From Acidobacteriota bacterium (lineage in GTDB: Bacteria > Acidobacteriota > Thermoanaerobaculia > Gp7-AA8), in the NCBI GenBank assembly GCA_003223645.1, contig QHVT01000003.1:186001-250000 (forward strand): DNA of 64,000 nucleotides. The letters run 5' to 3'. A program made the translations under genes and the position numbers. Shown piece by piece: positions 11,734 to 50,210 of this stretch. The stretch's first letter is position 1. Each line of letters begins with the position of its first letter. Under the pieces are notes generated by a model. It searched no databases and had not been told where the DNA came from. It saw only the letters and a list, made by a program, of their open reading frames with translations.

Positions 11734-12765
11734 ATGGACTTCGATCTCAGCAAGCCGCAGAAACTTCTCAAGCAGAGCGCGCGTGATTTCCTCTCGCGCG
11801 AATGCAAGCCCGAGCGCGTGCGCGCGGCGATGGCGACCGACACGGCCGACGATCGCGCGCTCTTCACCGCCGCCGCGGATCAGGGATGGACATCGCTCAT
11901 CATTCCCGAAACGTACGGCGGACTCGGACTCGGCGTCGTCGACCTCGCGGTCGTCGCGGAAGAGATGGGACGCGCATGCATGCCGGGCCCGCTCTTCGCG
12001 ACGATCTTCGCGTCCGCCGCAATCGTGCACGCGGGAACGGAAGAGCAAAAACGAAAATGGCTCGAGCCGATCGCGGCGGGAGAGATGCGCGCGACGGTCG
12101 CACTGTCGAATGAATTCGTGCTCGATGCCGGAGTCGCGGATCTGGTTCTGCGTTTCACGGATGACGGGATCGAGGAAGTGGAAGGCGCGACGTTCGAGCG
12201 CACGCCCGCGATCGATGAGACGCGGAAACTCTATCGAGTGGACGACAGACAATCTTGTCTGTCCGAGGGCAGGCAGGATTGCCTGTCCTCCACCATCGAC
12301 ATCGCCGCCGTCGCGCTTTGCGCGGAAATGGTCGGCGGGATGCAGTGGATCCTCGACACGACCGTCGCCTACGCGAAAACGCGCCAGCAGTTCGGCCGCG
12401 CGATCGGATCGTTCCAGGCCGTGCAGCATCTCTGCGCCGATATGCTGCTGATGACCGAGAGCGCGCGCTCGGCCACGTACAACGCCGCGTGGGAAATGAC
12501 GCCGCTGGCGGTGTCGATCGCGAAGGCGTATTGCTCCGATGCGTACCGCGAAGCCGCGAATCGCGGCATCCAGGTACATGGCGGCATCGGCTTCACCTGG
12601 GAACACGACCTCCACCTTTATTTTCGACGCGCCAAGGCATCCGAGACTATGTTCGGCGACGCGACGTTCCATCGGGAGCGCATCGCGTCGCTCGTTATCG
12701 ACCGGCAATCAAGTGCGGCGGAGCGCTCCGCCGAAATGTTGGCCCGTTCTTCTTCATCTAAATAG
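11734..12765 (+). CDS. Acyl-CoA dehydrogenase, second subunit type
   Basis: A 343-residue acyl-CoA dehydrogenase homologue that starts 1 nt after its neighbour stops. It has the N-terminal YGGLGLGVVDLAVVAEEMG segment and the C-terminal helical domain with VHGGIGFTWEHDLHLYFRRA. It lacks the SEPxxGSD loop and the GTSEIQ motif, so it may be the non-catalytic or half-site partner of a heteromer. A palindromic repeat (12238-12293) is read in frame as VDDRQSCLSEGRQDCLSST in a variable loop. The stop codon runs into the ribosome binding site of the TonB receptor gene. Confidence 0.87.
   Translation: MDFDLSKPQKLLKQSARDFLSRECKPERVRAAMATDTADDRALFTAAADQGWTSLIIPETYGGLGLGVVDLAVVAEEMGRACMPGPLFATIFASAAIVHAGTEEQKRKWLEPIAAGEMRATVALSNEFVLDAGVADLVLRFTDDGIEEVEGATFERTPAIDETRKLYRVDDRQSCLSEGRQDCLSSTIDIAAVALCAEMVGGMQWILDTTVAYAKTRQQFGRAIGSFQAVQHLCADMLLMTESARSATYNAAWEMTPLAVSIAKAYCSDAYREAANRGIQVHGGIGFTWEHDLHLYFRRAKASETMFGDATFHRERIASLVIDRQSSAAERSAEMLARSSSSK
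12238..12293. repeat. Palindrome in frame in the second acyl-CoA dehydrogenase
   Basis: A 56-bp palindrome (gtggacgacagacaatc to gattgcctgtcctccac). A second copy at 41130-41183 lies in frame in an unrelated gene. Both are read in the same frame and direction (DRQSCLS in each). Confidence 0.8.
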
Positions 12766-34276: not shown

Positions 34277-35914
34277 TCAGCGCCTGCCCGGTTTCGCGTT
34301 CTCCCACGTCCCCTTCGCGCTCTGTCGCAGCACCTTGCCGTCGAACGTAAACCACGTTGTTCCGCCGGCGGTGGTGACGCCGATGTCGCGGCGATTGTCG
34401 TGATTGATGTCGTCGATGCGCAGACCTTCAATCGCATCCGCGGAGGCGGAGCGAAAAATCTGTTGCCAGACCGGAACGGTTTTCTTCGCGTGCAGGAGCA
34501 TCAGGCTGTTGGCAGAGGCGACCACGATCTTCGGCGCGTGCATGTTCGTCGGCCGGCCGATGACGACGCGCTGCAGCGGACCGGCGTAGTCGAAACTCGA
34601 GTGTTCGCTGCCGTCGTGGTCGAGCACCGTCAAGCGCGAGTCGTGATCGCCATTCCAGAGCGCGACGACCTGGTTCGTGTGTTTCTCGAAGAGATCGCCG
34701 ACGGCGAACGTTCGCAGTGTTCTCGTCTCGCCGTTGCGGGTCCAAAGTGTTTTGCCGTCTCGGTCGACCGCCAGGATCCGGTCGTGCAGGCCGATGACCA
34801 CTTCATAAAACGAGTCGGCGTCCAGATCGGCGGCAATGGCGGCGACGACCGGCTCGCCGAAGTCTTTTTGCCAGAGCATGCGCGTGTTCTCGTCGTATGC
34901 CGTGACGATCGTGCGATCGATTTCGGGCCGGATGCGCGCGCCGGGGGAGCGCCAGCATTCGCAGAGCGGCATGTTGCGCGTGTTGCCTTCCATGCTGATC
35001 TGCGTAGCGGGATCCACGACTCGGTGTTTGTTGTCGCGGATCCAGTCGTGCACTTCGCGATCCACGAAACGGTACAGCGTGTCGACCACCACGACACCGT
35101 GCGGTGCCGAGGCCTTGCCGTCCAATCCGTCCAACACCGCCTTCGTGAAGACGCCGTTCTGATGCTCGGGATCGTCGTACGCGTACTCGCCGGGAGCCGC
35201 AGCGTAGAAGATTACCTGGCCCCGCACATTTTTCATGCGGCGGATTTGCGGTGCGGCGGCCGCAGGATCGGGAGTCGCTCCGCGCGAGCCGCGGCCGATG
35301 CGATCGCGGCACGCGTCGATAAAGATCAGGGAACGCCGCGCCTGCGCCGCGATGTCGAAGATCGTCGCCGCGCGCAGCGACGATTCGGGCGAGCCGAACG
35401 ATGAGTTGGAGCCGAGGATGTAGGCGTCGCCGTGTTGTTGAAAGCCGTGCGAGGCGATGGAAAGGACGAAGATGCCGTCGTCTCCCGCGCGCGCGGCCTG
35501 CTCTTTGAGGATCTCGAAGATGTTGTCCGCGGTGGCATTTCTAACGATGTGCGCGCGAGCGCTTTCCAATTCGCGAAGGCGTTGCTTCGATTCGGCTTTC
35601 TGTGGTGAGCCGGAAATCGCGAGGACGACGCGCGGCGGCGGAACGAGCCCGACACGTTGATCGAGCGCGAAGCGATACGCAAGATCGATCGCGTCGTCGA
35701 CGGCGTACGGCACCTCCAGATTCCCATCGTGAAAGTCGCGCACGCCGACGAATAAGCCGGTCGAGTTTTCGCGCGAGAACTTCGGCTCGGCCAGCGTGTC
35801 CGCGAGCATCACCGGCTCCACCGATCGCGTCGCCGATCGCTTCGAGCACAGCATGCCCATCGTGGTCACGAGAACCATCAGACCGCCCGCAACGAGCGAT
35901 TTCCATGTGTTCAC
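34277..35914 (-). CDS. Membrane-anchored caspase-like protease with C-terminal propeller-like repeats
   Basis: A 545-residue protein. An N-terminal hydrophobic segment (5-23) anchors it, so the rest lies outside the cytoplasm. Residues about 50-300 form a caspase/metacaspase (peptidase C14) p20-like domain with the catalytic His156 in SIASHGFQQHG and Cys202 in LIFIDACRDRIGRG. The C-terminal 200 residues hold FG-GAP-like repeats (AADLDADSFYEVVIG; DDINHDNRRDIGVTT). The start is GTG at 35914. It is divergent from the VWA-tubulin-like operon, 104 nt away, which suggests a shared system. It abuts the broken regulator gene without a gap. Confidence 0.85.
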   Translation of the reverse strand: MNTWKSLVAGGLMVLVTTMGMLCSKRSATRSVEPVMLADTLAEPKFSRENSTGLFVGVRDFHDGNLEVPYAVDDAIDLAYRFALDQRVGLVPPPRVVLAISGSPQKAESKQRLRELESARAHIVRNATADNIFEILKEQAARAGDDGIFVLSIASHGFQQHGDAYILGSNSSFGSPESSLRAATIFDIAAQARRSLIFIDACRDRIGRGSRGATPDPAAAAPQIRRMKNVRGQVIFYAAAPGEYAYDDPEHQNGVFTKAVLDGLDGKASAPHGVVVVDTLYRFVDREVHDWIRDNKHRVVDPATQISMEGNTRNMPLCECWRSPGARIRPEIDRTIVTAYDENTRMLWQKDFGEPVVAAIAADLDADSFYEVVIGLHDRILAVDRDGKTLWTRNGETRTLRTFAVGDLFEKHTNQVVALWNGDHDSRLTVLDHDGSEHSSFDYAGPLQRVVIGRPTNMHAPKIVVASANSLMLLHAKKTVPVWQQIFRSASADAIEGLRIDDINHDNRRDIGVTTAGGTTWFTFDGKVLRQSAKGTWENAKPGRR

Positions 35915-36018: not shown

Positions 36019-37128
36019 ATGAGACGGCTTCCTGTCGCGGCATTTCTGCTGTTCGTCGCCGTAGCCTCGCATGCGCAGACGCTCGGCCCGGTCGATTGGA
36101 TTTTTCTCCTCGACACGTCGAAGTCGATGAAAGGCATCGGCGGGACGAAAAACATCTGGACGGATGTGAAGGTGGCGCTCGATTCGTTCGCGCAGGAAGC
36201 GGGCAAACAGGATTCGCTGACGCTGTACGCATTCGATCGCGACGTCCGCGAAATCGACACGAGCAATCTGCGCCGCGCGATCTTCGATCTCGACGCCCAG
36301 GGCAATCGCACGCACCTCGGCGCCGCGATCGCGAAAGGTCTCGAGCGCGCCGAGGTGTTGCGCGGCACCAGCCGTGATGCCACGCGCCGTCAGGTCGTCG
36401 TGCTTTTCACCGACGGCAAAGAAGACGTGCGCGGCATCAGGAACCCGGTGCGCATCGATGCGAACATCGATCGCGCCGGCGAGACGTTCGTCTTCTTCGT
36501 CTCGATGGGCGATCACGAGCCGCAGCTCGACGCGTTCGCCACGAGGACGAAACACACATCGGTACTGAGGACGCCGGACGCGGACGCGATTCGCAATGTC
36601 GCGCGGGAGATTCGCGCGAAGATTCCGCCGAAACCCGCGCCTCCGCCTCCACCGAGACCGCATCGCGCACCTCCGCCGATTCCGAAAGAGCCTCCGTCGT
36701 TGATCGCGAGAGTGCTGACCGCAACGATCGCGCTGGCGCTCGTCGCGGCGATTGCCATCCTCTTCTTCAAACAGCAGCAGAAGAAAAATCGACTCGAAGG
36801 CGAGTTGGAAATTCTCCGTCCTCGCGCCGCCCCCGACGCCGCTTTCGTCGGCCTGCCGCATCTGCAGGCGAACGAAGTCGCGCTCAGCGCGATCCTGCCG
36901 GTCGACACACTCTCCGGCAGCGACGCGCGTCTCTTCGTGCGCCGCAAAGCGGGCCGCAAGAAAGTCTGGATCGCCGCGCAAAGCGGATCGCTGCGCATCA
37001 ACGACGTCGAGACGCCGATGAGCGAGTTGTACGACGCCGACACGATCGAGATCGGCGACGCGAAGCTGCGCTTCAACCGCGTCGGCGACGAACGTCCACT
37101 CGAATCCAATCAGGAGGCTGACCTGTGA
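36019..37128 (+). CDS. VWA domain membrane protein with FHA-like C-terminus
   Basis: A 369-residue protein: signal sequence MRRLPVAAFLLFVAVASHAQ, von Willebrand A domain with MIDAS motif DTSKSM (about 34-39) and a second metal-site Thr in NRTHLGAAI, a proline-rich linker, a transmembrane helix (VLTATIALALVAAIAILFF), and an FHA-like domain (SGSDARLFVRR; GSLRINDVE; YDADTIEIGDAKLRF). The VWA part would be outside and the FHA-like part in the cytoplasm, so it could pass a binding signal inward. AAGGAG lies 5 nt before the ATG. Its stop overlaps the tubulin-like start (GTGA). Confidence 0.87.
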   Translation: MRRLPVAAFLLFVAVASHAQTLGPVDWIFLLDTSKSMKGIGGTKNIWTDVKVALDSFAQEAGKQDSLTLYAFDRDVREIDTSNLRRAIFDLDAQGNRTHLGAAIAKGLERAEVLRGTSRDATRRQVVVLFTDGKEDVRGIRNPVRIDANIDRAGETFVFFVSMGDHEPQLDAFATRTKHTSVLRTPDADAIRNVAREIRAKIPPKPAPPPPPRPHRAPPPIPKEPPSLIARVLTATIALALVAAIAILFFKQQQKKNRLEGELEILRPRAAPDAAFVGLPHLQANEVALSAILPVDTLSGSDARLFVRRKAGRKKVWIAAQSGSLRINDVETPMSELYDADTIEIGDAKLRFNRVGDERPLESNQEADL

Positions 37129-39872
37129 AAAACAATGTCGTGTTTCGTCCCACCGTAGTCCTCGGCCTCGGCGGTACCGGCTACAAAACACTTCTCAAAT
37201 TGAAGAAGCGTTTCGTCGATGCGTACGGATCCGTTCCGCCGATCATCCGCTTCCTCTCCATCGACACGACCGAGAACGCGGAAGGCTCGTCGCGCGGCGA
37301 AGAGATCTCGACTGACGGGCATCTCGACCACAACGAGACCTACGTGCTGCAGGTCGGCAATCCTGCGAATCTCGTCAACGGCACGAACCCGCACATCGAC
37401 GAGTGGTGGCCGCCGGAGATTCCGACGCAGGCCATCATCGCCGGCGCGGGACAGGTACGCGCGCGCGGACGCCTGGCGCTGTTTGCGAAAGCATCCGAGG
37501 TGTATGGGCGCATCCGTCGAGCAGTCGACGACGTGCGAAACATCCGCAATCAGAAGCAGATGTATGCGGACGAGTTTCAGGTGTCGGAGCGCTCCGGCGT
37601 CGAGGTGCACATCGTCGGCAGTCTCGCCGGCGGCACCGGCAGCGGCACGTTTCTCGACATGGCGTTCATGGCCCGCGACGTGATCGGCAGCGACGAGCAG
37701 TCGAACTTCACCGCGGTCCTGCTGCTCCCCGGCATCTTCACGCGCATGAACGGCGTGGCGCTGGTCAAGCCGAACGCGTACGGCGCGCTCAAGGAGATCG
37801 AGCAGCTCTCGACGTCACGCGCAACGCTCACCGTCGACTACGGTTTCCGCCGCGTCGACGTCACGCGTCCGCCGTTCGACGTCGTCTATCTCATCGACAG
37901 CGTCAACGAGCAGGGACGCGTGGTGACGGAGCAGAGCGATCTGCACGCGCTCATCGCCGACGGCATGTACGTGCAGATCGGCTCGCAGCTCGGCACCGAC
38001 GCCGCGAACGCGGTCGACAACATCAAAACGCAGATCGCCACGCAGCCGCGCGTGAAGGGACGTTCGCCGCAGTACTGCAGCTTCGGCGTGGCCGCGCTGA
38101 CGATGCCGAGCTTCGACGCGCAGCTGTACGAGGACGCGAAGCGGCTCGTCAACGACGATCTGCTGGACGGCGCGGTGGCGGACTCCGAGATCGAAGAGGA
38201 AGTGCAGCGCTTCATCGACACGACGCATTTGCGCGAGGACGACGCGGATCAAGTAATCGAGGTGCTCAGCCAGCGCGAAGGCGGCGGACAGCTGCGCGTT
38301 CCGATGCCGCTCACGCAACTGACCTTCGATGCCAAAGCACTTGGCGCCATCAAGAACCTGCACACCGTGCATCGCTCGAAGGCGGAGCGGCAGATCGCGC
38401 AGGTGATCGGCGCGAACTTCGAAGTGCTGCGCGACCGCTCGTCATCGGCGATCAGCGCTTTGTGGGAATCGATGGTCAACCGCAACAACGGCTTCACTCG
38501 CGCGTCACGCTTCTTCGAAAAGCTGCAGGCGAAGCTGGAGTGGTATCGCAACATGATGGACGGCGAGGCGAAAGAAGAGCGCACGCGTCTCAAGGCGATC
38601 AGCTTCAAGTCCGCGGAAGATCAGATCACCGAGGCGGCCGGCGCGTTCATGCGGCGCGAGGCGAAGGTGAAGACCGCGTGCGAGGTGTACGGCGGTCTCG
38701 TCGATCGCGAGACCGAGCTGACGATCCGCGTGGCACGTCTCGAAAAAGCCGCCGAGCTCTACTCGACGCTGCACGCGCACACGCAGTCGATTCTCGACAG
38801 CTGCTATCGCATCCGCGAGAACCTCAACGCCGCGCGCAAGCAGTTCGAGCAGCAGTATCTCGAGGCGACGAATCCGCGCGGCGCGGCGCGGCTGTTCGAA
38901 CAGACCGTCGCGTTCGATCCGGGCGAGCATCGCCCGCGCGTCACCGGCGAGGACTTCGTGAAGTGGTACGCCGATCAGCATCGCGCGTCGCTGTCGCAGT
39001 GGGCCGGCCTCCGCGCGGCCGAGGTGCACGCGGACATCCAGCAGTTCGTCGAGAAGTGCTACGAGCCGCTGACGTCGTTGACGATGGACGACATCCTTCG
39101 CCGCTCGTCGCCCGACGTCGTCTCGCAGCAGCTCAAGCGTCTCGACAACCTCGCCGTGCCGCTGTGGCGTTACGACGTCGGCCGCATTCCGGTCGTCAAT
39201 CAGACGCTCATCAACGAGTTCTATCACTACGGCGTCGCCGACGCCGACACGACGCTGCTGAAGGAATCGCGTTATGAGGCCGGGCTGCCGAAAGGGTCGG
39301 CCAAACCGTCGATGGTCTCGACGCGCGATACGAAACGCATCCTCCTTTTCAAGGTCAAAACCGGCCTGCCGCTCTTCGCGCTTGCGGAGATGGAGGACAT
39401 GGAGCGCGCGTACACCGATCCGAACAAGATCATCTCCAATCACGTCGATCGCCGCTGGCAGGAGCTGCCGAACCTGATTCCGCGCAGCGGCGACGGCGAG
39501 GCGCTGCGCTGGTTCGCGCTGGCGCAGGCGCCGGAACCGTTCGCGATCATCCGCCGCGACGGCGCGTGGTATTCGATGAAGTCGAAGAACGGCCGGCGCA
39601 CGGAGAACAACATGGTGCGGCTGGCGCAGGGGCGCGTGCCGGCGTTCACGGCGTTCGAGAAGAGCCGTGATCTCGTTCAGGAAGCGGAGGAAGCGATTGA
39701 TGCCGCGGTGACGCGCGAAGGCGCGGTGCGCGCGGCGCAGATTCTTCGCGACTACGCGGAGTCGCTCTCGAAGCAGATGGCGAATGCGGTCGAGCCGCAG
39801 GTGAAAGACCAGGTCGAGAACGAGATCGTGGCGATCGAGGACTACGTGCGGCGCATGGAGACGCTCGCGTAA
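37125..39872 (+). CDS. Tubulin-like GTPase (Tubulin_2 family) with coiled-coil C-terminus
   Basis: A 915-residue protein. The N-terminal phosphate-binding turn is VVLGLGGTGYKTLLKLKKR (12-30), and the tubulin/FtsZ signature is GSLAGGTGSGTFLDMA (165-180), so GTP binding and polymer formation are plausible. Strands and helices typical of the fold follow to about residue 400 (AVLLLPGIF; FDVVYLIDSVNEQGR). The C-terminal half is helical and charged. PF13809-type proteins are known only as conserved, unstudied tubulin homologues. The GTG start has AGGAGG 7 nt upstream and overlaps the VWA stop; the stop is immediately followed by the next gene. It probably works at the membrane with the VWA and downstream proteins. 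Confidence 0.85.
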   Translation: MKNNVVFRPTVVLGLGGTGYKTLLKLKKRFVDAYGSVPPIIRFLSIDTTENAEGSSRGEEISTDGHLDHNETYVLQVGNPANLVNGTNPHIDEWWPPEIPTQAIIAGAGQVRARGRLALFAKASEVYGRIRRAVDDVRNIRNQKQMYADEFQVSERSGVEVHIVGSLAGGTGSGTFLDMAFMARDVIGSDEQSNFTAVLLLPGIFTRMNGVALVKPNAYGALKEIEQLSTSRATLTVDYGFRRVDVTRPPFDVVYLIDSVNEQGRVVTEQSDLHALIADGMYVQIGSQLGTDAANAVDNIKTQIATQPRVKGRSPQYCSFGVAALTMPSFDAQLYEDAKRLVNDDLLDGAVADSEIEEEVQRFIDTTHLREDDADQVIEVLSQREGGGQLRVPMPLTQLTFDAKALGAIKNLHTVHRSKAERQIAQVIGANFEVLRDRSSSAISALWESMVNRNNGFTRASRFFEKLQAKLEWYRNMMDGEAKEERTRLKAISFKSAEDQITEAAGAFMRREAKVKTACEVYGGLVDRETELTIRVARLEKAAELYSTLHAHTQSILDSCYRIRENLNAARKQFEQQYLEATNPRGAARLFEQTVAFDPGEHRPRVTGEDFVKWYADQHRASLSQWAGLRAAEVHADIQQFVEKCYEPLTSLTMDDILRRSSPDVVSQQLKRLDNLAVPLWRYDVGRIPVVNQTLINEFYHYGVADADTTLLKESRYEAGLPKGSAKPSMVSTRDTKRILLFKVKTGLPLFALAEMEDMERAYTDPNKIISNHVDRRWQELPNLIPRSGDGEALRWFALAQAPEPFAIIRRDGAWYSMKSKNGRRTENNMVRLAQGRVPAFTAFEKSRDLVQEAEEAIDAAVTREGAVRAAQILRDYAESLSKQMANAVEPQVKDQVENEIVAIEDYVRRMETLA

Positions 39873-42644
39873 ATGCTCAAGCCCGTCAGCATCCTCGCTC
39901 TCGACGACGTCGTCGCGCCGCTCGCGCAGGCGGTGCAGCAGCGCGTCGCGGCGCATCACGGCGTCGACGATCTCGTGCAGTCGCGCGTGTGCGACGAACA
40001 TCCCGAGGCGGCGATTCAGTCGATGCACGCGCAGCGGCAGCGTCCCGACAGTCCGCTGCGTCTGCGCGACGACGTCGGCACGCGCGAGCTCGTGCTGGTC
40101 ATGCTCGCCGCGGCCGGTCCCGCGCGCGCATCGCTGCTCGAGACGACGCGCCACATCCGCTCGATCTACGAGACGCGCCGCTTCGCGTCGTTCGTGTCGA
40201 TCGAGATTCTCTGTCTCTTGCCGGAAGCGGCCGGGGCATCGCAGCCGGCGGACTACGCGGCCGCGTACGCGCTGCTGAAAACGCTCAGCGCCGAAGACGA
40301 CAAACCGTTCGACGAAGTCTGGCTCGTCGACGCGACGAACGGAAAGCGCGTGCGCTTCGGCGCGACGGATGCGTTCCTCGACGTCTACGCCGACGCGATC
40401 GCGGGAGCGCTCACGTACGAGCCGGAGATGAGCGGCGCGTTGCCGGGCATTCATCCGCGCGGCATGCATCCGACGTTCAGCTCCTTTGGCTACGCATCGC
40501 TCGTGTTTCCGCGCGACGTCGCGCTGCAGCGCGTCCAGGCGCGCTTCGCCGCGGAGCTCGTGCGCGAGAAACTGCTCGCCGGCGCACACGCGACGCACGT
40601 GCAGCTCGCGGCGAAACAGTTCGTGGTGGCCGACGAGTTCGCGCTGCCGCTGTCGCGCATCGGCGTCGAAGGCGGTCAGTCTCTCTTCTGCCGGTTCCGC
40701 CCGAAGACGCAAGTCACCGAAAAGACGCGGAGCGCGGAAGAAACGATCGCCGCGGTGCGCAGCGAGCTGCAGACGTTCCGCGACAAGACGCATTTGCGAA
40801 ATCTGGAGACGCTGGCGAAGCAGGGCGACGAGACGGCGCGCGATCACGCGGCGCTGCTCGCGCGCACGGTTGACGAGACGCTTGACCGCGACGGCTATGA
40901 CGCCGCGATCTCGTTCCTCGACGCGTTGCTCGATCCGTTGCCGGAGCTTCGTTCCGACGCGGAGCTCGCGCCACGCAATGTCGTGACGGAGATCCGCACA
41001 GCAACAGCTGCGCTGGACGCACGCCTGCACTTCATCGCCAACACCGCCTCGAGCGACGCGGCGCGGCATCGCGTTCGCGAGTTGGCGACGCTCATCGAAG
41101 ATCAGAAGGTCGTCGCCGAGACGCTGCTGGTGGAGGACAGGCAATCCTGCCTGTCCGGACAGGCGGGATCGCCTGTCCTCCACTCGGCACTCCAGTCGCT
41201 CGAAGAGGAGAAATCGTCGCTGCTTCGCAAAGTGCCGGAGCTGATCTTTGCCGAGGAGCGGGAGAACAGCGTGGCGCGCACGGCGGCGCGCGAAGCGGAA
41301 ACGGCGCGATTGTCGGCGGAAACAATCGCGCGCGAGCAAAGGCTGCGCGAGCTGTTCGCGCAGCTGCCGCAAGCAGAGCAGGCGCTGCGCGAAGCGCTGG
41401 AGACGCGGCGGGCGTGGCTGTGGAAGCAGCTGTTGTTCGGCGTTGTCGGCGCGGTCGCAGTGTTCGCGGCCCGGCTCACGTGGGCAGTGCTGCCCGTGCT
41501 CGCAATCTTCGCCGTCGTCACGGCGATTCGTTACGTGACGCAGATCGTGCCGCTCGTGCGCGAGGCGCGCGAACGATTGGCGCGCCTTCGCTCGCAAATC
41601 GAGACGGCGGATCAGTCGAAGGACGCCGCGCACAACGACGAGCTGCAGTTCGAATACGACATGATTCATCACCGCACCGCGCTGCGCGTATTGCGCGCGG
41701 CGCACGATGCGGCGCGAGAGACGCTCGATGCCGCTCGCGCGCGGCGTGCCGACCTCGAAGGACTCGCCGCTTCGTTCGTCGCGCCGTCGCTCGCGTCGCG
41801 CCAGTTGTCGCTCAGCGTGATCGACGACGTGGAAGTCGATGCCTGGTACGCGCGGACGATCGACGATCGGAAGCCGTTCGCGCGCGAGTTTCCGATCCGG
41901 CGCGCGGAGTCGCGGCGTCTGCCGATGGACGAGCTTCGGCAGCGAGTCACGTCGCACGCGTCCATCGCGTTCGCCGATTTCCGCAAGCTCACGCTCGCGA
42001 AGGCTGCATCATCGCTCGCGAACGAGTCGAAGCTCGCGCAGCGTCTCAAGCGGCTCGCGGATGCGAGCGCGCCGCTCATCGAGCTGCGCGAAGACGATCT
42101 GCAGGCGCAGCGGTCGATGCAATCCGATTGCACGCTCTGGCTTGACACGGACGACGCGACCTGGACCGCGCAGCTGCAGCGCCGCTTCCCTGAGTCGCAC
42201 GTGCGGCCCGCGTCAGACGCGCTCTCCGTCCACGTGATCACGCGCGCGCTGCACTATCCCGGCTACATCCTCGGCGCGATCGACTATTACCGCGCGCAGT
42301 ACGAATCCGCTTCGCCTCGTGACGCAAATGACGTCGCCGATCTCATCCCGGTCAAAATCGTCTTCGGCGCACGCGTGCACGCCGCTTACGAGCAAGTCCT
42401 CCTCGCCCACGCCCTCGGCATCGCGATCGCGCGTGACGGCGAAACGCATCTCGCCACCGCGCAGCGTCTCGCCGAGCCCGATAGCAGCGCCGATCGCGAG
42501 CAACTCGACGACGCGCTCGTTCCGCGATTGGAGATCACACCCGACGTCACGCGCGAACTGCGTTCGCTGCGCAAGTCCGTGCCGCTTACTCCGCTCGACC
42601 GCAACGTCCTCGATGGACTGTTGAGAAAGTACGCGACGCCATGA
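39873..42644 (+). CDS. Degenerate tubulin-like partner with membrane hairpin and coiled coils
   Basis: A 923-residue protein starting directly after the tubulin-like stop. Its N-terminal 260 residues follow the same pattern as the neighbour: KPVSILALDDVVAPLAQAVQ against RPTVVLGLGGTGYKTLLKLK; RELVLVMLAAAGPARASLLE in place of the GGTGSGT loop; IEILCLLPEA against AVLLLPGI; FDEVWLVDATNG against FDVVYLIDSVNE; FSSFGYASLVFP against YCSFGVAALTMP. Both nucleotide-binding loops are lost. A long coiled coil and two adjacent hydrophobic helices (about 514-560) follow, then more helices. A palindrome at 41130-41183 is read in frame (VEDRQSCLSGQAGSPVLHS). This looks like a non-GTPase subunit of a heterodimer. 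The homology is my reading and needs a structure check. Confidence 0.7.
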   Translation: MLKPVSILALDDVVAPLAQAVQQRVAAHHGVDDLVQSRVCDEHPEAAIQSMHAQRQRPDSPLRLRDDVGTRELVLVMLAAAGPARASLLETTRHIRSIYETRRFASFVSIEILCLLPEAAGASQPADYAAAYALLKTLSAEDDKPFDEVWLVDATNGKRVRFGATDAFLDVYADAIAGALTYEPEMSGALPGIHPRGMHPTFSSFGYASLVFPRDVALQRVQARFAAELVREKLLAGAHATHVQLAAKQFVVADEFALPLSRIGVEGGQSLFCRFRPKTQVTEKTRSAEETIAAVRSELQTFRDKTHLRNLETLAKQGDETARDHAALLARTVDETLDRDGYDAAISFLDALLDPLPELRSDAELAPRNVVTEIRTATAALDARLHFIANTASSDAARHRVRELATLIEDQKVVAETLLVEDRQSCLSGQAGSPVLHSALQSLEEEKSSLLRKVPELIFAEERENSVARTAAREAETARLSAETIAREQRLRELFAQLPQAEQALREALETRRAWLWKQLLFGVVGAVAVFAARLTWAVLPVLAIFAVVTAIRYVTQIVPLVREARERLARLRSQIETADQSKDAAHNDELQFEYDMIHHRTALRVLRAAHDAARETLDAARARRADLEGLAASFVAPSLASRQLSLSVIDDVEVDAWYARTIDDRKPFAREFPIRRAESRRLPMDELRQRVTSHASIAFADFRKLTLAKAASSLANESKLAQRLKRLADASAPLIELREDDLQAQRSMQSDCTLWLDTDDATWTAQLQRRFPESHVRPASDALSVHVITRALHYPGYILGAIDYYRAQYESASPRDANDVADLIPVKIVFGARVHAAYEQVLLAHALGIAIARDGETHLATAQRLAEPDSSADREQLDDALVPRLEITPDVTRELRSLRKSVPLTPLDRNVLDGLLRKYATP
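41130..41183. repeat. Palindrome in frame in the degenerate tubulin-like gene
   Basis: A 54-bp palindrome (gtggaggacaggcaatcc to gatcgcctgtcctccac), second copy of the 12238-12293 element and read in the same frame (DRQSCLS). It sits in the coiled-coil part of the protein, between VVAETLL and ALQSLEEEK, replacing no conserved motif. Confidence 0.8.
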
Positions 42645-42922: not shown

Positions 42923-44482
42923 TCAGAGCGTGACGCGACGGCGCGTTGGCGCGACCGACTCGAACGTGATCCGCTCGAGCGACCAGCGCGTCTCGATGAG
43001 CAGGCGCCGTGCGCGAGCTTCGTCGCGCTCGAGGATCGACGGATCCGGCAAGGGCTCCTCGGCGGACAGGAGGAAGTACGTATCGACGCCGTAGGGGCGG
43101 ACGACGCGGAAGGCGCTCGGATGGCCGAGAGTGATTTCGGAGGAAGCGCGGTCGTCGACTGGAAAGCGGTTCTCGACCGAGCCGGTTTTCGGAAAGACGA
43201 GATGGCTGTGGCCGCGGCTGTCGACGACGAAGACGTAGTAATAGCGCGGCGTGCGTGGCATCTGCGACGGACGAAGAACCACGCTGTAAATGCGACTGCC
43301 GATCACCGTCGCACCGTCGACGGTTTGCTTCGTTCGTTCGTCGCGAATCGCGAGGTGGTACGGCGACGAAGGATCGGTCGGCGTTGCCAGTGAGTACCAC
43401 CTGGACGTGCGCCGAACGATCTCGAGCAATGCGCCGGCACGAATCGTCGATGGGCCGGCGGACACTTGCGCGACACTGCGGCCGAGGCCGAGGAGTTGGG
43501 TGATGCGTACCCGGGTGTTGTCGGCTGCTCGCAGTTCACTGCCGACTGCGAGACCGTGTGACCACCCGCCTTGCACGACGATCTGATCCTGCTGAACTGA
43601 TTCCACGGCGATGACCGCGCGTGCGGCGCGTCGATGCATGCCGAGAAATGGTCGCAGCCGCGCGTCGGCGTTCCCGAGCATCGCCGGCATCTGATAAGGC
43701 CTCTCGTTGCGCAATCGCGCCTGCGCGCGCAGAAACGTCTCCTCGGCCGGTTCGTCTGCAACCGCATCGCGCATCGCGCGGATCCACGCCCACGTGAATG
43801 CTCCGTGCATCACGCCGTCGTCGCCGCGTATCTCGTACGCCGAGTCGAGATCTTGCGTCGACGCGAGGACCAGCGCACCGCGGTCGTCGGGCCGCGGTCC
43901 GTAACTTGTGCGATCGACGATGGGCGGCGCTTTCGCGATACCGCGAACGCGCTCACCGCGAAAACCGCCGCCGCTGTGGCAGGAATCGAGAAGCAGCGTC
44001 AGTCGCGCGCCGCGATCGAGAATGCGATTGAAGCGCGGCCGCAGTTCTTTGTCGCGAATGTCCTCGGCGCCGCGGCGCGAATCGGCGGGGACGGTTGATT
44101 CGTCCAAACCGTCCGGCTCGTCGGACGCCGCGTTCGGAACCTGCGAGCCGTGACCAGCGAAGTAGTAGAAGACGATGTCACCGGCGCGCGCAGGAGTGAC
44201 GAGCTGCTGTTCGATCGCGTGCAGAATCGCGGCGCGCGTCGCCTGCTGATTGGTGAGCGCGATGATGTTCTTCCGCTCGAAGCCGTACCGCAGGACGAGC
44301 ATCTCGGACAGGATGCGAACGTCGTTCGCCGAGCCTTGCAGGTCCGGCCAGCCGCGATGCTCGACCGTCTTCACGACAGGAATCGTCGACGCGGTGTAGT
44401 CGTCGATGCCGATCAGCAACGCGCGCTTTGCCGGTTGTGCGGACGCGGAGACGGCGAGGAGCGCTATCAATAGAAATCGCAT
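42923..44482 (-). CDS. Secreted caspase-like protease (peptidase C14)
   Basis: A 519-residue exported protein (signal peptide MRFLLIALLAVSASAQ). Residues about 18-270 form a caspase domain: ALLIGIDDY at the start, catalytic His111 in YYFAGHGSQ and Cys168 in LLLDSCHSGGG, and the basic-substrate-pocket acidic residues DEPDGLDE typical of metacaspases. The C-terminal 240 residues are beta-rich, with no family I recognise (RYYYVFVVDSRGHSHLVFP). It converges on the tubulin-like operon and precedes a small lipoprotein gene. A second caspase (34277-35914) flanks the other side of the operon. Confidence 0.88.
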   Translation of the reverse strand: MRFLLIALLAVSASAQPAKRALLIGIDDYTASTIPVVKTVEHRGWPDLQGSANDVRILSEMLVLRYGFERKNIIALTNQQATRAAILHAIEQQLVTPARAGDIVFYYFAGHGSQVPNAASDEPDGLDESTVPADSRRGAEDIRDKELRPRFNRILDRGARLTLLLDSCHSGGGFRGERVRGIAKAPPIVDRTSYGPRPDDRGALVLASTQDLDSAYEIRGDDGVMHGAFTWAWIRAMRDAVADEPAEETFLRAQARLRNERPYQMPAMLGNADARLRPFLGMHRRAARAVIAVESVQQDQIVVQGGWSHGLAVGSELRAADNTRVRITQLLGLGRSVAQVSAGPSTIRAGALLEIVRRTSRWYSLATPTDPSSPYHLAIRDERTKQTVDGATVIGSRIYSVVLRPSQMPRTPRYYYVFVVDSRGHSHLVFPKTGSVENRFPVDDRASSEITLGHPSAFRVVRPYGVDTYFLLSAEEPLPDPSILERDEARARRLLIETRWSLERITFESVAPTRRRVTL

Positions 44483-44922: not shown

Positions 44923-45990
44923 TTACGGCCAGGGTTGGACGGGCGGACAGAGGACGCGGTCGTACAACGAGCGTCCGGGCTCGAACCTCAAGCGGTTCAG
45001 CAGCTCGGACGTGACCGCGTTCGAGGGATGGACGGAAGTCCACGTGACCTGCGGAACGGTCATACCGCTCGGTGCACCGGTGCGCGGAACGAGGCGTGCC
45101 TCGCGCGCCGGCGGGCTCGCCAGCAGCTCGTAGTACATCTCGAAATGCTTGCCGACCTGAGGCGCGTCATTACTCGACGAGGCCGGCGGAACGGACGGCG
45201 GCAGATTCACGACGGCCACTTCCACTTTGCCGCTCGCGTCGGGCGAGAGCGTCATCGTGCGGCCGGTGCTGTTGTCGTATTTCGTCTCCACGAAGTCGAC
45301 GCTGTCGCCCGTCACTTCGATGTCGACGCCGATCCAACTCGCGACCGCCTGCACGTACGCGGACGTGCTGCCGGTGCCGTCGAGACGCTTGAAATGCACG
45401 GGCGTGACGTCGCTGCCGATGCGCGCGATGCTGTAGGTGTAGAGATCGCCGCTGTTGATCTTGAAGCGCGCGGCGACGATCTCCGGCGGAACGTTCGCGA
45501 GAAGATCGGAGTCGAGCGTGCAGCCGCCGCCGCACAGCTGCTGCAATGACGGAATCCAGGAGATGTCCTGCCGCTCGGTCGACGTTGTCGGAATGATTTT
45601 CGGCTGGCCGTTGACCGTGCCGCGATCCCCATTGTGGATGTTGAGCGCCGGAAGACTCGCGGCTCCGCTCGACTTCTGGACGGTGATGTCCGAGCCCGAG
45701 ATGGCCCAGGCGCTGCCGTCGCCGAGGGCGTAGACGAGAGAGTCGAGCGCGGCCGAGGATGACTGGTCGCGGAACGTCGATGCGGCGATGGTCAGATCGT
45801 CATTGACGCAGGCGCCGCTGCAGCTTCCCGCGCGCGCATAGAGCAACGGCTTGTGCGGCTGCATCGCCGAGCCGTCGGACGTGTGGTAGTGATCGGCATT
45901 GAGGAGCAGGACCGTGACTTCGGTCCCGTTGTCATTGGGAATGAAGGCCATCAGGCCCGAGAAGAGAATCTTGAGTACAAACGTGCTCAC
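44923..45990 (-). CDS. Conserved-looking protein of unknown function coupled to the CHAT gene
   Basis: A 355-residue protein starting at GTG 45990 with GGAGG 9 nt upstream. The N-terminus STFVLKILFSGLMAFIPNDN is hydrophobic but short. The rest is beta-rich, with several cysteine pairs (GSCSGACVND; CGGGCTLD), and I recognise no domain. The start lies 58 bp inside the end of the CHAT gene on the same strand, implying translational coupling and a shared task. It could be the target or regulator of the CHAT protease, but that is only context. Confidence 0.65.
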   Translation of the reverse strand: MSTFVLKILFSGLMAFIPNDNGTEVTVLLLNADHYHTSDGSAMQPHKPLLYARAGSCSGACVNDDLTIAASTFRDQSSSAALDSLVYALGDGSAWAISGSDITVQKSSGAASLPALNIHNGDRGTVNGQPKIIPTTSTERQDISWIPSLQQLCGGGCTLDSDLLANVPPEIVAARFKINSGDLYTYSIARIGSDVTPVHFKRLDGTGSTSAYVQAVASWIGVDIEVTGDSVDFVETKYDNSTGRTMTLSPDASGKVEVAVVNLPPSVPPASSSNDAPQVGKHFEMYYELLASPPAREARLVPRTGAPSGMTVPQVTWTSVHPSNAVTSELLNRLRFEPGRSLYDRVLCPPVQPWP

Positions 45991-48715
45991 TGCTTGGTTC
46001 CTCCAAAGCGGCGGAGCGCGGATACGGGGACGCGGCGAAGCCGACGACCTGAAACGCGGACCACGCTTCCACCGGCACTTTCTTTCGGAGCATTTCGAGT
46101 TGCGCCTTGCGCAGCGCAACTGCCACGTCGTCTCCGTGCCGATAGTGACAATGGAAGAACACCAGCAGTTCTTTCGTGGAGGCGTCGTTGACCTCTCTCA
46201 GGGTGCCGACGACCGCGGGAACATTGGCTGCAATGAACGGTCGTGCGAGAGACGCGAGTCCCCGGTCGCCGGCGGAGCGTGCGCTGAACGTGCTGCACGC
46301 GCTGAGCACGACCAGGCGTGTGCGCTCGAGTCTCGGGAGCTTCTGCAGCAGCTTTTGCGCGGTCAATTCGCCCGATTCCTGTCCATGAGGCGAGAGCAGG
46401 AGCCGCGACTGCCACGGGTTTTGAGAAACAGGGATAGCGTGACTGGCGAAATGAATGATCGTCGCGTTCTTTGCTTCGGCCAGAAATCTCTGTACGGTCG
46501 CATCGGCGCTGACGAGCACCGTGGCGCCCGGGTAATCGTTGCGCGCCAGTTCCTCCACTTCCTCTTTGGCGTGTGGAATCGGCGGAAATCCCTCGAACGT
46601 GGGATTGGCCACGAGGAGCGCGGTAGGCTTCCGCTCCGTCGACAACTGACGATCGCGTGCGAGTGCATATAGATACAGCGAAGTGCTGCTGTCAACGGCA
46701 ATGCTGGCGCGCTCGATCAGGTAGCGATTCTTTGCAGTTTCAAGAGCATTGAAGGCGAGCCCCTGCATCGACTCGTCAGGCACGATCACAATCCGCGTCT
46801 TCGTCGAGCCGGCGCGTTTCAATGGTGCGTCGAATAGCTCGGCGTATGCGGCCCGCGCGAAGTTTTTCGCAACCCATCGTTGAACATCCGCCTTCGTGGC
46901 ACGCTGTTGAACGACTTCAATGCGCTCCCGTGTGATGACCCACGTGTAGGTCCTCTTCGGCAACACGAGGTATTGAAGAATGACGGTGTGTTCCGGCAAA
47001 CCGGCACGCGCCTGTTGAAGATCCGCCGTCGTTTCGATGAACCGGAACCCTGGCGAACGCGATTGCAGGAGGATCTGCATCGGCTCGAAGGCGCGCGCAA
47101 GCTCGTCATAAACCAACGCGCCTTCAATATCGCCCTCGAGGATGCGGCTCTCGATGAGCTCATCCTGCCAGTCCCGGAACCGCGAAAAGTACGGCGTCCA
47201 TAAGAGCTCCGTAGCGGCTGGTGGATTTCTTGTGAGAGCGCCCCGAACCTCATTGCGCAAGATTCCGATGGCCGTTGCATCGTCCTCGTCCGCACGCGGG
47301 TCTTTGGCCTTCCGTCGCGCGGCGCCGCGCTCGAAATGCAGAATGGCGAGGTAAGTCGAGTCCTGACCCTTCGCGAGCTCGATCACTTCATTGAAGACTG
47401 TTGCCGCTCTTGCGGGATCGCTCTTGAGCAGCGACTGTCCCTCTACTTCGAGCCTGCGCATCCGCATAAGGTTACGACGCTCAATGTAATTTGCCGCCTC
47501 GGCGAGATCGGATGCCTGTTGCAGATCGTCGCGAGCCTCGGCGTCCTGTTGGAGCTGCACATGGAATTCGGCTCGCTGTCGTAGTGCAGCTGAGAGCTCC
47601 ATCTTTGCAGTCGCCAGGTCGCGAGCAGTCCTCGCGCCCATCACGGCCCGTTGCGCGTCCTCGACCGCTGCATTCTGATAGAGGAGCGCGGTGTTCGGAT
47701 GCCCGAGCTGCGCTGCTGCCCTCGCGGCACCGGCGTACGCATGATTGCGTGCGTCGATGTTGGCGACGCGGGGCAAAAGCTTCAGGGCGCTATGCGCGTC
47801 GGAGAATGCCTTCTCGGAATTGCCGATTGTGGCGAAGTTGAAGCTCTCACGTCCGAATGCCACGGCCGTCAAGGTCGGCTCTCGATTTGCGGCCGCGAGA
47901 GCCTGCCGGTAGACCGCGAGTGCTTCGAGATAACGATCGTCGAACTCCAACGCGCTCGCGCGCAATACGTAAATGCGCGAGGACAGCTCGCGATCACGAG
48001 AGTTGAGATCTGGAAGGATCGTATCGATTTCGCGCAGCGCTTGTTCGGGCATCGTGAAGGATTCAGTCGCCGCGGCGTAATAGCGCGCAGCCAGCGCCAA
48101 CGGATTCCCTGCCCGGTCGAAGAGCGTCGCCGCGCGCAGAAAGTCTCCCTTGCGGAATGCATCCAACCCCTGATCGAGCGCTGCTCGATCCTTCGTCCGA
48201 TCCATCGCATCGATCACCGTCTGCGGATAATGCTCGCCCGCTCCGGCAAGTACCTTTGCGAACAACCGCGCGCGTTCGCGGTCGCGCAGCAGGGATCGTT
48301 CGAAATATTGGGCGGCATCTGCCGGAAACAGTCGCACGATCTTCGCCAATTCGGTCGCGTTGCGGCGATCCAATGCGCGATCGATTTCATCTGTATTCCA
48401 CTGTTTGATGGGATCGGGAAGCTGCTGCAGCGCGGCGATGTGCTGCCGCGCTTCGTTCGACCATTGCGGATTCTGCCGGGCCGCTTCGTTCCACGCAGCG
48501 ATCGCCTCTTTCGTCAGGCAGAGCTTCTCCAGCACGAGCGCGTGATTCGGCCCTTTCGCCGTTTCCAGCGCGCGCAGCAGTTTGACCGGGTCGTCGATGC
48601 GCTCGATGCGGGCCAGATCCCCCCTGCCGGGCGGTTTGGGGTTCTCTCTAGTGCAGGCCAACAGGGCGCTGCAGAGGCACAGAGCGATGCAGACTCGATT
48701 CTTCACGCCTAACAT
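45932..48715 (-). CDS. TPR-CHAT lipoprotein (caspase-like protease)
   Basis: A 927-residue protein. The signal peptide ends CSALLAC, a lipobox that predicts an outer- or periplasmic-membrane lipoprotein. Helical TPR-like repeats run from about 150 to 560 (ALEFDDRYLEALAVYRQALA; TIGNSEKAFSDAHSALKLLP). The C-terminal CHAT domain has catalytic His at about 759 in IIHFASHAIP and Cys at about 807 in VVLSACSTFSARS. CHAT proteases are caspase/separase relatives; TPR-CHAT cleaves gasdermin or other partners in some defence systems. It is divergent from the ECF sigma gene by 33 nt and overlaps the downstream gene by 59 bp. Confidence 0.87.
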   Translation of the reverse strand: MLGVKNRVCIALCLCSALLACTRENPKPPGRGDLARIERIDDPVKLLRALETAKGPNHALVLEKLCLTKEAIAAWNEAARQNPQWSNEARQHIAALQQLPDPIKQWNTDEIDRALDRRNATELAKIVRLFPADAAQYFERSLLRDRERARLFAKVLAGAGEHYPQTVIDAMDRTKDRAALDQGLDAFRKGDFLRAATLFDRAGNPLALAARYYAAATESFTMPEQALREIDTILPDLNSRDRELSSRIYVLRASALEFDDRYLEALAVYRQALAAANREPTLTAVAFGRESFNFATIGNSEKAFSDAHSALKLLPRVANIDARNHAYAGAARAAAQLGHPNTALLYQNAAVEDAQRAVMGARTARDLATAKMELSAALRQRAEFHVQLQQDAEARDDLQQASDLAEAANYIERRNLMRMRRLEVEGQSLLKSDPARAATVFNEVIELAKGQDSTYLAILHFERGAARRKAKDPRADEDDATAIGILRNEVRGALTRNPPAATELLWTPYFSRFRDWQDELIESRILEGDIEGALVYDELARAFEPMQILLQSRSPGFRFIETTADLQQARAGLPEHTVILQYLVLPKRTYTWVITRERIEVVQQRATKADVQRWVAKNFARAAYAELFDAPLKRAGSTKTRIVIVPDESMQGLAFNALETAKNRYLIERASIAVDSSTSLYLYALARDRQLSTERKPTALLVANPTFEGFPPIPHAKEEVEELARNDYPGATVLVSADATVQRFLAEAKNATIIHFASHAIPVSQNPWQSRLLLSPHGQESGELTAQKLLQKLPRLERTRLVVLSACSTFSARSAGDRGLASLARPFIAANVPAVVGTLREVNDASTKELLVFFHCHYRHGDDVAVALRKAQLEMLRKKVPVEAWSAFQVVGFAASPYPRSAALEEPSSEHVCTQDSLLGPDGLHSQ

Positions 48716-48748
48716 ACGATACGCGTTTCGCGGGAATTGGTGTGAGCA

Positions 48749-49312
48749 ATGACGACGCGGGAGCCCGGCGGAGACAGCAGCGATCGGTTCGAATCCGTAT
48801 ACAGGCGTCATTACGCGCGCATGCTTCGGTACTTCCACCAGGTATTTCGCGTGTCTGAGTCCGACGCAAAGGAATTGACGCAGGACGCCTTCATCCGCTT
48901 CTACAAGAAGATGGATGCCTACGACGGGCAGGCGGAATGGGCGCTGCTGGAGGAGATCGCGCGCAACGTCGGGTTGAACCGCGTGCGGTCTGTGACCACG
49001 ATCAAGCGCGGTAGCATCCGGCCGGAGTCCCTCGACGACGGCGATTCCGTGAAGGATGCGATGGATCGCACGCAAAAGCATCCGATCGATACGATGATCA
49101 AGAACGAGCAGCTGCAGCGAATGTACGAAGCCATCAGTGAGCTCCCTGATGGTCAGCGGCAATGCATCCAGCTATGGCTCGAGGATCTGAGCGGCGAAGA
49201 GATTGCGCTCGCCCTGCGCATCTCGGCAGTCGCGGTGAAGTCGCGCATCCGCGACGCGAAACGCGCGTTGCGCGAACGGCTGGGAGACGAAGGCGCGCTC
49301 CCTGAGGATTGA
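48749..49312 (+). CDS. ECF-type RNA polymerase sigma factor
   Basis: A 187-residue sigma-70 family factor with region 2 (FESVYRRHYARMLRYFHQVF; AKELTQDAFIRFYKKMDAYD) and region 4 (MYEAISELPDGQRQCIQLWL; SGEEIALALRISAVAVKSRI). There is no region 3 or extra C-terminal domain. It is followed after 3 nt by a membrane protein suited to be its anti-sigma factor and is divergent from the CHAT lipoprotein gene, a likely target. The ATG at 48749 has only a weak ribosome binding site. Confidence 0.9.
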   Translation: MTTREPGGDSSDRFESVYRRHYARMLRYFHQVFRVSESDAKELTQDAFIRFYKKMDAYDGQAEWALLEEIARNVGLNRVRSVTTIKRGSIRPESLDDGDSVKDAMDRTQKHPIDTMIKNEQLQRMYEAISELPDGQRQCIQLWLEDLSGEEIALALRISAVAVKSRIRDAKRALRERLGDEGALPED

Positions 49313-50071: not shown

Positions 50072-50138
50072 CGTCGATGTATCGCCTCCTACCCCGACGG
50101 GTGGGGCGGTTTCGCGGCGAGGGTGCGATCTTGATCTC

Positions 50139-50193
50139 GTGTAGGACAGGCTTTCAAGCCTGTCCTGCGCAGGCTGGAAAGCCTGCGCTACAC
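50139..50193. repeat. Double-hairpin palindrome before the Crp/Fnr gene
   Basis: gtgtaggacaggctttcaag is followed by its hairpin partner, then gcaggctggaaagcctgc and ctacac. Same family as 32603-32660. It fills most of the gap to the Shine-Dalgarno sequence of the next gene. Confidence 0.7.
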
Positions 50194-50210
50194 CAGAAGG
50201 AGCTCACACC

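Follow-up and report, generated by a model that had tools for sequence, protein, structure and literature searches.

A live FtsZl1 GTPase and a hairpin-bearing paralogue that has probably lost GTP binding are kept together beside a vWA gene

A three-gene locus with two tubulin-type genes

The window analyzed here, a 64-kb stretch of DNA (64,000 nucleotides) from an Acidobacteriota bacterium (contig QHVT01000003.1, positions 186,001 to 250,000), contains three tightly packed genes on the plus strand. The first encodes a vWA membrane protein of 369 amino acids (36019-37128, Pfam VWA E 1.9e-11). Gene 1 (37125-39872) encodes an FtsZl1 (Tubulin_2) GTPase of 915 amino acids, the putative catalytic subunit, and gene 2 (39873-42644) encodes a partner of 923 amino acids, a pseudo-FtsZl1 that is very probably GTPase-dead and bears a membrane hairpin. 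All positions are those of the window and on the plus strand unless another strand is given. A preliminary description, made from the sequence alone, had placed a tubulin-like GTPase and a degenerate partner at these coordinates, and both open reading frames are found there; the upstream vWA gene and the homology between the C-terminal parts of the two proteins are additions to it. The listed reading frame of the vWA gene, from 35602, starts too early, and the gene is taken as 36019-37128. Gene 1 starts with a GTG inside the stop codon of the vWA gene (GTGA overlap), with AGGAGG just upstream, and the ATG of gene 2 abuts the TAA stop codon of gene 1 (TAAATG). The three genes very probably form one operon.

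The product of gene 1 matches PF13809 (Tubulin_2) over residues 11-329 with a Pfam E of 7e-62 and a score of 210 bits, against a cut-off of 27. It belongs to the FtsZl1 family of Makarova and Koonin 2010 (PMC2875224), and PMC9871819 ties PF13809 to those FtsZ-like sequences. Both phosphate loops noted in the preliminary description are intact in gene 1. The T1 loop GLGGTG (residues 14-19, 37164-37181) has glycines that are invariant in the alignment of FtsZl1 relatives, and the T4 loop GGTGSG (residues 169-174, 37629-37646) is invariant or nearly so. The AlphaFold model of gene 1, built with 24 relatives, has a mean predicted local distance difference test score (pLDDT) of 84.4, and its top Foldseek matches in the PDB are FtsZ, CetZ and tubulin (probability 1.00, best E 3.5e-5). 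We note that residues 805-863 (39537-39713), in the C-terminal region, match Pfam RecA_C with an E of 1.9e-4, below the cut-off, and that the same stretch matches RecA chains in the PDB (E 3e-11 for a multi-copy RecA fusion, 3e-4 for a single RecA).

Full-length paralogy between gene 2 and gene 1

As a single sequence, the gene 2 protein gives a Pfam match to Tubulin_2 with an E of 1.6e-4, under the curated cut-off, and BLASTP between the two proteins gives an E of 5e-4. When the gene 2 family was compared with the gene 1 family by hhalign, 663 columns were aligned with a probability of 99.8 and an E of 4.1e-28, spanning residues 47-920 of gene 2 and 133-877 of gene 1. Each end carries the signal by itself: the N-terminal domain alone gives an E of 1.7e-14, and the C-terminal domain alone (41790-42641), homologous to gene 1 residues ~613-877, gives 4.1e-12, while the coiled-coil middle alone is not significant against the gene 1 family. 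In the controls, column-shuffled profiles reached a probability of at most 0.2%, and 40 other long proteins of the same loci reached at most 8.8% against the FtsZl1 profile. Among remoter partners, that of G100 scores 52 bits, above the Pfam Tubulin_2 cut-off, and that of L083 aligns with the FtsZl1 profile over 860 columns (E 2e-40). The profile comparison identifies gene 2 as a paralogue that is colinear with gene 1 over its full length.

The AlphaFold model of gene 2 has an overall mean pLDDT of 75.8, and the order of strands and helices in its first 250 residues tracks the tubulin domain of gene 1. An N-terminus without a tubulin fold had been named in the preliminary description as the finding that would speak against the pairing; the model instead keeps the strand-helix order of gene 1. 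The segment pairs quoted there are in register for LLPEA/LLPGI, FDEVWLVDA/FDVVYLIDS and FSSFGYASLVFP/YCSFGVAALTMP, but the pair ILAL/VLGL precedes the start of the profile-profile alignment; in its favour are the predicted order of strands and the alignments for remoter partners (L042, L083), which start at that strand. A Foldseek search of the full gene 2 model against the PDB was not significant, with tubulin ranked 49th (E 0.5), because the long helices dominate the search. Its top matches were chains of helical pore-forming toxins (E 0.01, root-mean-square deviation 15-32 Å), which we judge to be a by-product of the long helical hairpin. We therefore base the fold assignment on the profile homology and on the order of the structural elements.

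An ordinary coiled-coil membrane protein, unrelated to tubulin and resembling gene 1 at its N-terminus by chance, would fit the sub-threshold Pfam score of the single sequence and the non-significant Foldseek search. Against such a protein stand the family comparison, its null shuffles and 40 negative controls, and the G100 and L083 partners. We give this explanation hardly any credence and regard it as refuted by the profile comparison and its controls.

Gene 2 has lost the phosphate loops and carries a membrane hairpin

The preliminary description held that both phosphate loops are replaced in gene 2, and the alignment of partners bears this out, with LALDDVV and AAAGPARA at the matching positions. 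The degenerate T1 position reads ALDDVV (39897-39914; ALDPHSA-like in Nostocales) and the degenerate T4 position reads AAAGPARA (40107-40130; SASN/D-like in relatives). The GGTGSG motif of T4 is replaced in all 20 of the 20 aligned partners. T1 is lost in the clade of the window and Nostocales, and some remote partners retain part of it (GLGGIG in L039, GLGGWG in L101 and GIGDTG in L083). GTP binding is thus predicted to be very probably absent in gene 2. With T1 kept in some remote partners and T4 gone in all, intermediates exist on the way from a tubulin-type subunit to a likely membrane adaptor.

The middle of gene 2 is modelled by AlphaFold as two helices of about 100 residues each (residues 434-533 and 536-636, 41172-41780) that form a coiled-coil stalk with a hydrophobic hairpin at its tip. 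The membrane hairpin (residues ~514-554, 41412-41534) is seen by hydropathy, is conserved in homologues, and sits at the turn between the two helices, where gene 1 is gapped. Two transmembrane helices had been claimed for gene 2, and two hydrophobic segments are indeed present; the turn in the window protein is short, and a stricter hydropathy script gives one peak. Two clear helices are apparent in most homologues, and in the cyanobacterial proteins the loop between them has 18 residues. Both ends of gene 2 probably face the cytosol, because in most homologues the hairpin loop is poor in lysine and arginine and the downstream flank is richer in them. As a separate observation, a 54-base near-palindromic dispersed repeat (41130-41183) lies in frame in gene 2 (residues ~417-440, RQSCLSGQAGSPVLHS); similar copies occur in the window at ~12235-12295 and ~50136-50199, elsewhere in G000, and in G015.

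The protein encoded upstream has a signal-like N-terminus, a vWA domain, one C-terminal transmembrane helix and a short cytosolic FHA-like tail. The metal-binding motif of the vWA domain (metal ion-dependent adhesion site) is intact as DTSKS (36112-36126), and DxSxS is present in 7 of the 8 homologues checked. The single transmembrane helix is at 36712-36768 by hydropathy. The tail of ~118 residues (36772-37125) is 34-40% identical to the tails from Nostocales and L072, and Pfam FHA matches weakly in 6 of 12 tails of such proteins (best E 0.002). The signal-like N-terminus and the single transmembrane helix before the tail place the vWA domain outside and the small FHA-like domain inside, as predicted topology.

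The pair is conserved together with the vWA gene

A scan of genome contigs with the single gene 2 sequence gave no match, and the FtsZl1 alignment was used instead; this profile scan led to 80 fetched loci. Among them are 20 close gene 1 loci, 19 of them cyanobacterial (mostly Nostocales) and one from an acidobacterial metagenome-assembled genome. At all 20, a gene 2 homologue directly follows gene 1 (phmmer E 1e-49 to 4e-64; in two pieces at L060) and a vWA homologue precedes it. Remoter partners, with 95-100% probability against the FtsZl1 profile, were found at L042/L082 and L039 (all from the phylum of the window's genome), L079 (titled Acidobacteria), and L083, L101 (Chloroflexota). The order vWA, FtsZl1, hairpin partner recurs at L039, L083 and L101, and the layout of L039 is repeated at L165, which comes from a Chloroflexota sample. 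Members of the Acidobacteria, Cyanobacteria and Chloroflexi retain the live/dead pair side by side with its vWA gene. We note that L039 (1083-13986) and L165 (1919-14947), from genomes of two phyla, hold a longer operon, in which the three genes are followed by genes for a small transmembrane protein, a ~395-residue protein and a ~900-residue protein, the last a HerA-type ATPase by Pfam in L039.

In 193 genomes of Nostocaceae, full-length gene 1 is present in 25, and 24 of these have an intact adjacent gene 2; these genomes are related, and the counts are not independent events. Two different tubulin-fold subunits are thus retained side by side in 24 of the 25 Nostocaceae genomes with intact gene 1, and the preliminary description, which would have given way had the two genes never co-occurred, agrees with a pair found together almost without exception. 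In G590, gene 2 is cut at the contig edge. Decayed gene 2 fragments occur in several Nostocaceae genomes where gene 1 is absent or decayed. At L060 (12799-14435, Calothrix sp. PCC 7716), FtsZl1 is intact, the partner is split into two short open reading frames and the vWA gene is short; G701 is in the same state.

The ratio of nonsynonymous to synonymous substitution rates (dN/dS), 0.14-0.25 in gene 2 against 0.08-0.18 in gene 1, indicates purifying selection on gene 2. The faster evolution of gene 2 and the decayed copies in several Nostocaceae might suit a pseudogene-like duplicate that decays without function, but that dN/dS range, intact reading frames of ~1000 codons in three phyla and near-strict co-retention with gene 1 speak against it. 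This explanation is refuted by conservation, and we assign it next to no probability. In a tree of the N-terminal domains, 13 partners all lie on one side of one branch (78/80; in 77% of bootstraps), and their branching largely mirrors that of gene 1. The tree favours a single origin of the dead copies; it is moderate evidence because the branches are long.

The distribution is patchy. Apart from matches to the dispersed repeat, no gene 2 homologue was found among 40 relatives of the same class; an order-wide sample of 149 cyanobacterial genomes returned the query genome alone, and plasmids yielded no match to the L072 partner. A dead partner at every FtsZl1 locus was considered and rejected: the genes downstream of FtsZl1 in Meiothermus, in the type that is widespread among cyanobacteria and in the Wallbacteria type resemble neither FtsZl1 nor gene 2. 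At L045, L046 and L048 the downstream genes are likewise not significant against the FtsZl1 profile, and at L043 the match is borderline (83%). In Bacillota loci L148-L150, the gene after FtsZl1 encodes a dead FtsZl1 paralogue by profile (probability 94.3, E 1e-7), and at Bacillota L153 a 599-residue protein after FtsZl1 has retained T1 but not T4 and contains a hydrophobic pair (probability 70, a weak match). The source genome of the window also holds a second FtsZl1 gene (L053, 9453-13430, 1325 amino acids) in another operon, which is without a dead partner and continues with two transmembrane-containing genes. The three-gene system is present in named cyanobacteria, Dulcicalothrix desertica PCC 7102 and Mastigocoleus testarum BC008, so its study need not be limited to bacteria known from metagenomes.

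Relation to known systems

Operons of FtsZl1 and vWA genes were described in 2010 by Makarova and Koonin (PMC2875224). The family described in the main text there shares with gene 1 an N-terminal FtsZ-like domain, a coiled coil, a helical C-terminal domain and a vWA gene in the operon. That main text calls the other operon genes lineage-specific, without recognizable domains and often transmembrane, and does not mention a dead FtsZl1 partner. Kaur et al. 2020 (PMC7159879) described Firmicute GAP1-N2 systems that have two genes for a tubulin domain plus coiled coil and also vWA genes, one of them with transmembrane helices and an extracellular vWA domain. Those systems differ in being centred on DO-GTPases and GAP1; near the window locus, Pfam gives no GTPase family among the scanned neighbours, and GAP1 may lack a Pfam model. 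No statement of a nucleotide-dead or membrane-inserted tubulin was found in the available text of PMC7159879. The loop-less Bacillota paralogue of L148-L150, which unlike the gene 2 protein of the window has no hairpin, possibly corresponds to the second 'tubulin' that Kaur et al. 2020 reported. The preliminary description knew of no prokaryotic pair with a membrane-bound dead subunit. The novelty is narrower than that, since FtsZl1/vWA operons and two-tubulin Firmicute systems were already known, but neither a dead subunit nor a membrane hairpin in such pairs was found in the passages that our literature search covered, which take in few subscription journals and no supplements.

The preliminary description proposed that the two gene products form a heterodimer like that of alpha- and beta-tubulin, for which alpha/beta-tubulin offers a loose analogy. 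It is loose because alpha-tubulin still binds GTP and gene 2 very probably does not. In alpha/beta-tubulin and in BtubA/BtubB, two different tubulin-fold subunits are encoded and used together; both subunits bind GTP, and neither is known to have a transmembrane hairpin or a C-terminal domain of the kind in genes 1 and 2. Gene 2 lacks both phosphate loops and, in contrast to both alpha- and beta-tubulin, is predicted from its sequence not to bind nucleotide. The FtsZ membrane anchors FtsA, ZipA and SepF resemble gene 2 in its proposed role of tying a tubulin-fold polymer to the membrane; to our knowledge, none of them is a tubulin-fold paralogue of the protein it anchors. Odinarchaeota have two FtsZ paralogues with different membrane attachment (PMC12583498): an amphipathic helix attaches one of them and SepF its counterpart, with no transmembrane hairpin in either case, and assemblies are reported for both.

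A proposed membrane-anchored machine and its alternatives

We favour, with modest confidence, a model in which the three genes encode one transmembrane machine and gene 2 is a dedicated membrane anchor or adaptor of gene 1, with vWA-sensed, GTP-gated assembly. Gene 1 would be the cytosolic GTP-binding FtsZl1 subunit, probably polymerizing. Gene 2 would have arisen by duplication of an FtsZl1 gene, retaining the N-terminal tubulin-type and C-terminal domains as likely interaction surfaces, losing the nucleotide pocket and acquiring a membrane hairpin at the coiled-coil tip; an anchor or adaptor is suggested because the domains were kept, the pocket was lost and the hairpin was gained. Gene 2 would then tether gene 1 to the inner membrane, next to the tail that the vWA protein extends into the cytosol, and a ligand or cell-wall state sensed by the external vWA domain would gate the GTP-dependent assembly of gene 1, with gene 2 as the platform. 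A broader statement is held more tentatively, at somewhat below even odds: that this is an obligate live/dead pair of the tubulin family in several phyla, whose hairpin-bearing dead paralogue co-assembles with the live subunit and couples cytosolic tubulin-type assembly to a periplasmic vWA sensor.

FtsZl1 proteins are widespread, yet no mechanism for them was found in the literature within reach of our search. A reviewer objected in PMC2875224 that an FtsZ-like protein in the cytosol would be unable to act together with partners in the periplasm. A dead hairpin paralogue beside a membrane-spanning vWA protein would provide a concrete physical link and is directly testable. The pair suggests a built-in means of tying a tubulin-like machine to the membrane, in which evolution has turned a tubulin-type subunit into a likely membrane adaptor.

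Several points weigh against the anchor model. The homology, loop loss, hairpin, co-occurrence, purifying selection and operon come from computation, and from these we infer the physical complex, the assembly of gene 1, the anchoring and the direction of the signal. Whether FtsZl1 polymerizes at all is a question raised in PMC2875224. Foldseek returned no significant PDB match for the complete model of gene 2, and G701, in the Nostocaceae sample, keeps gene 1 with a broken gene 2. The dead partners of L148-L150 in Bacillota have no transmembrane hairpin, and anchoring therefore cannot be the sole role of dead partners.

Alternatively, gene 2 might be present in sub-stoichiometric amounts and nucleate or cap a gene 1 filament at one of its ends, setting its start site on the membrane much as gamma-tubulin does in a ring complex, instead of serving as a subunit that repeats along the filament. 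A tubulin-type fold without a nucleotide pocket would be a natural fixed end, and the hairpin would supply position. That gene 2 starts directly at the stop codon of gene 1 (TAAATG) would suit a more balanced ratio of the two proteins, although this is weak evidence, and we consider an end-cap unlikely.

The pair might also act as a GTP-gated switch with no cytoskeletal polymer, in which gene 1 with GTP docks on or leaves a receptor of gene 2 and the vWA protein, as in proposed GTPase-centred conflict systems. Recognizable T6-H7 elements are missing in FtsZl1, according to PMC2875224. The vWA domain, the FHA-like tail and, in L083, an adjoining protein kinase gene point to signalling; the presence of the system is patchy, with loss as a unit in Nostocaceae, and the triad of the window has two caspase genes and a CHAT gene in its flanks. 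However, the scanned flanks of a few other triads show neither a caspase nor a CHAT gene, and PADLOC models matched none of the three proteins. A switch of this kind also seems improbable to us, a shade more so than an end-cap.

Neighbouring genes

For want of a PADLOC match to the vWA protein, gene 1 or gene 2, a known anti-phage defence system was rejected. The caspase and CHAT neighbours were dropped as components of the system because they are missing from the scanned flanks of other triads. They comprise two caspase-domain genes, one on either side of the triad (34277-35911 and 42923-44479), and then a CHAT-domain gene (45932-49159), all on the minus strand.

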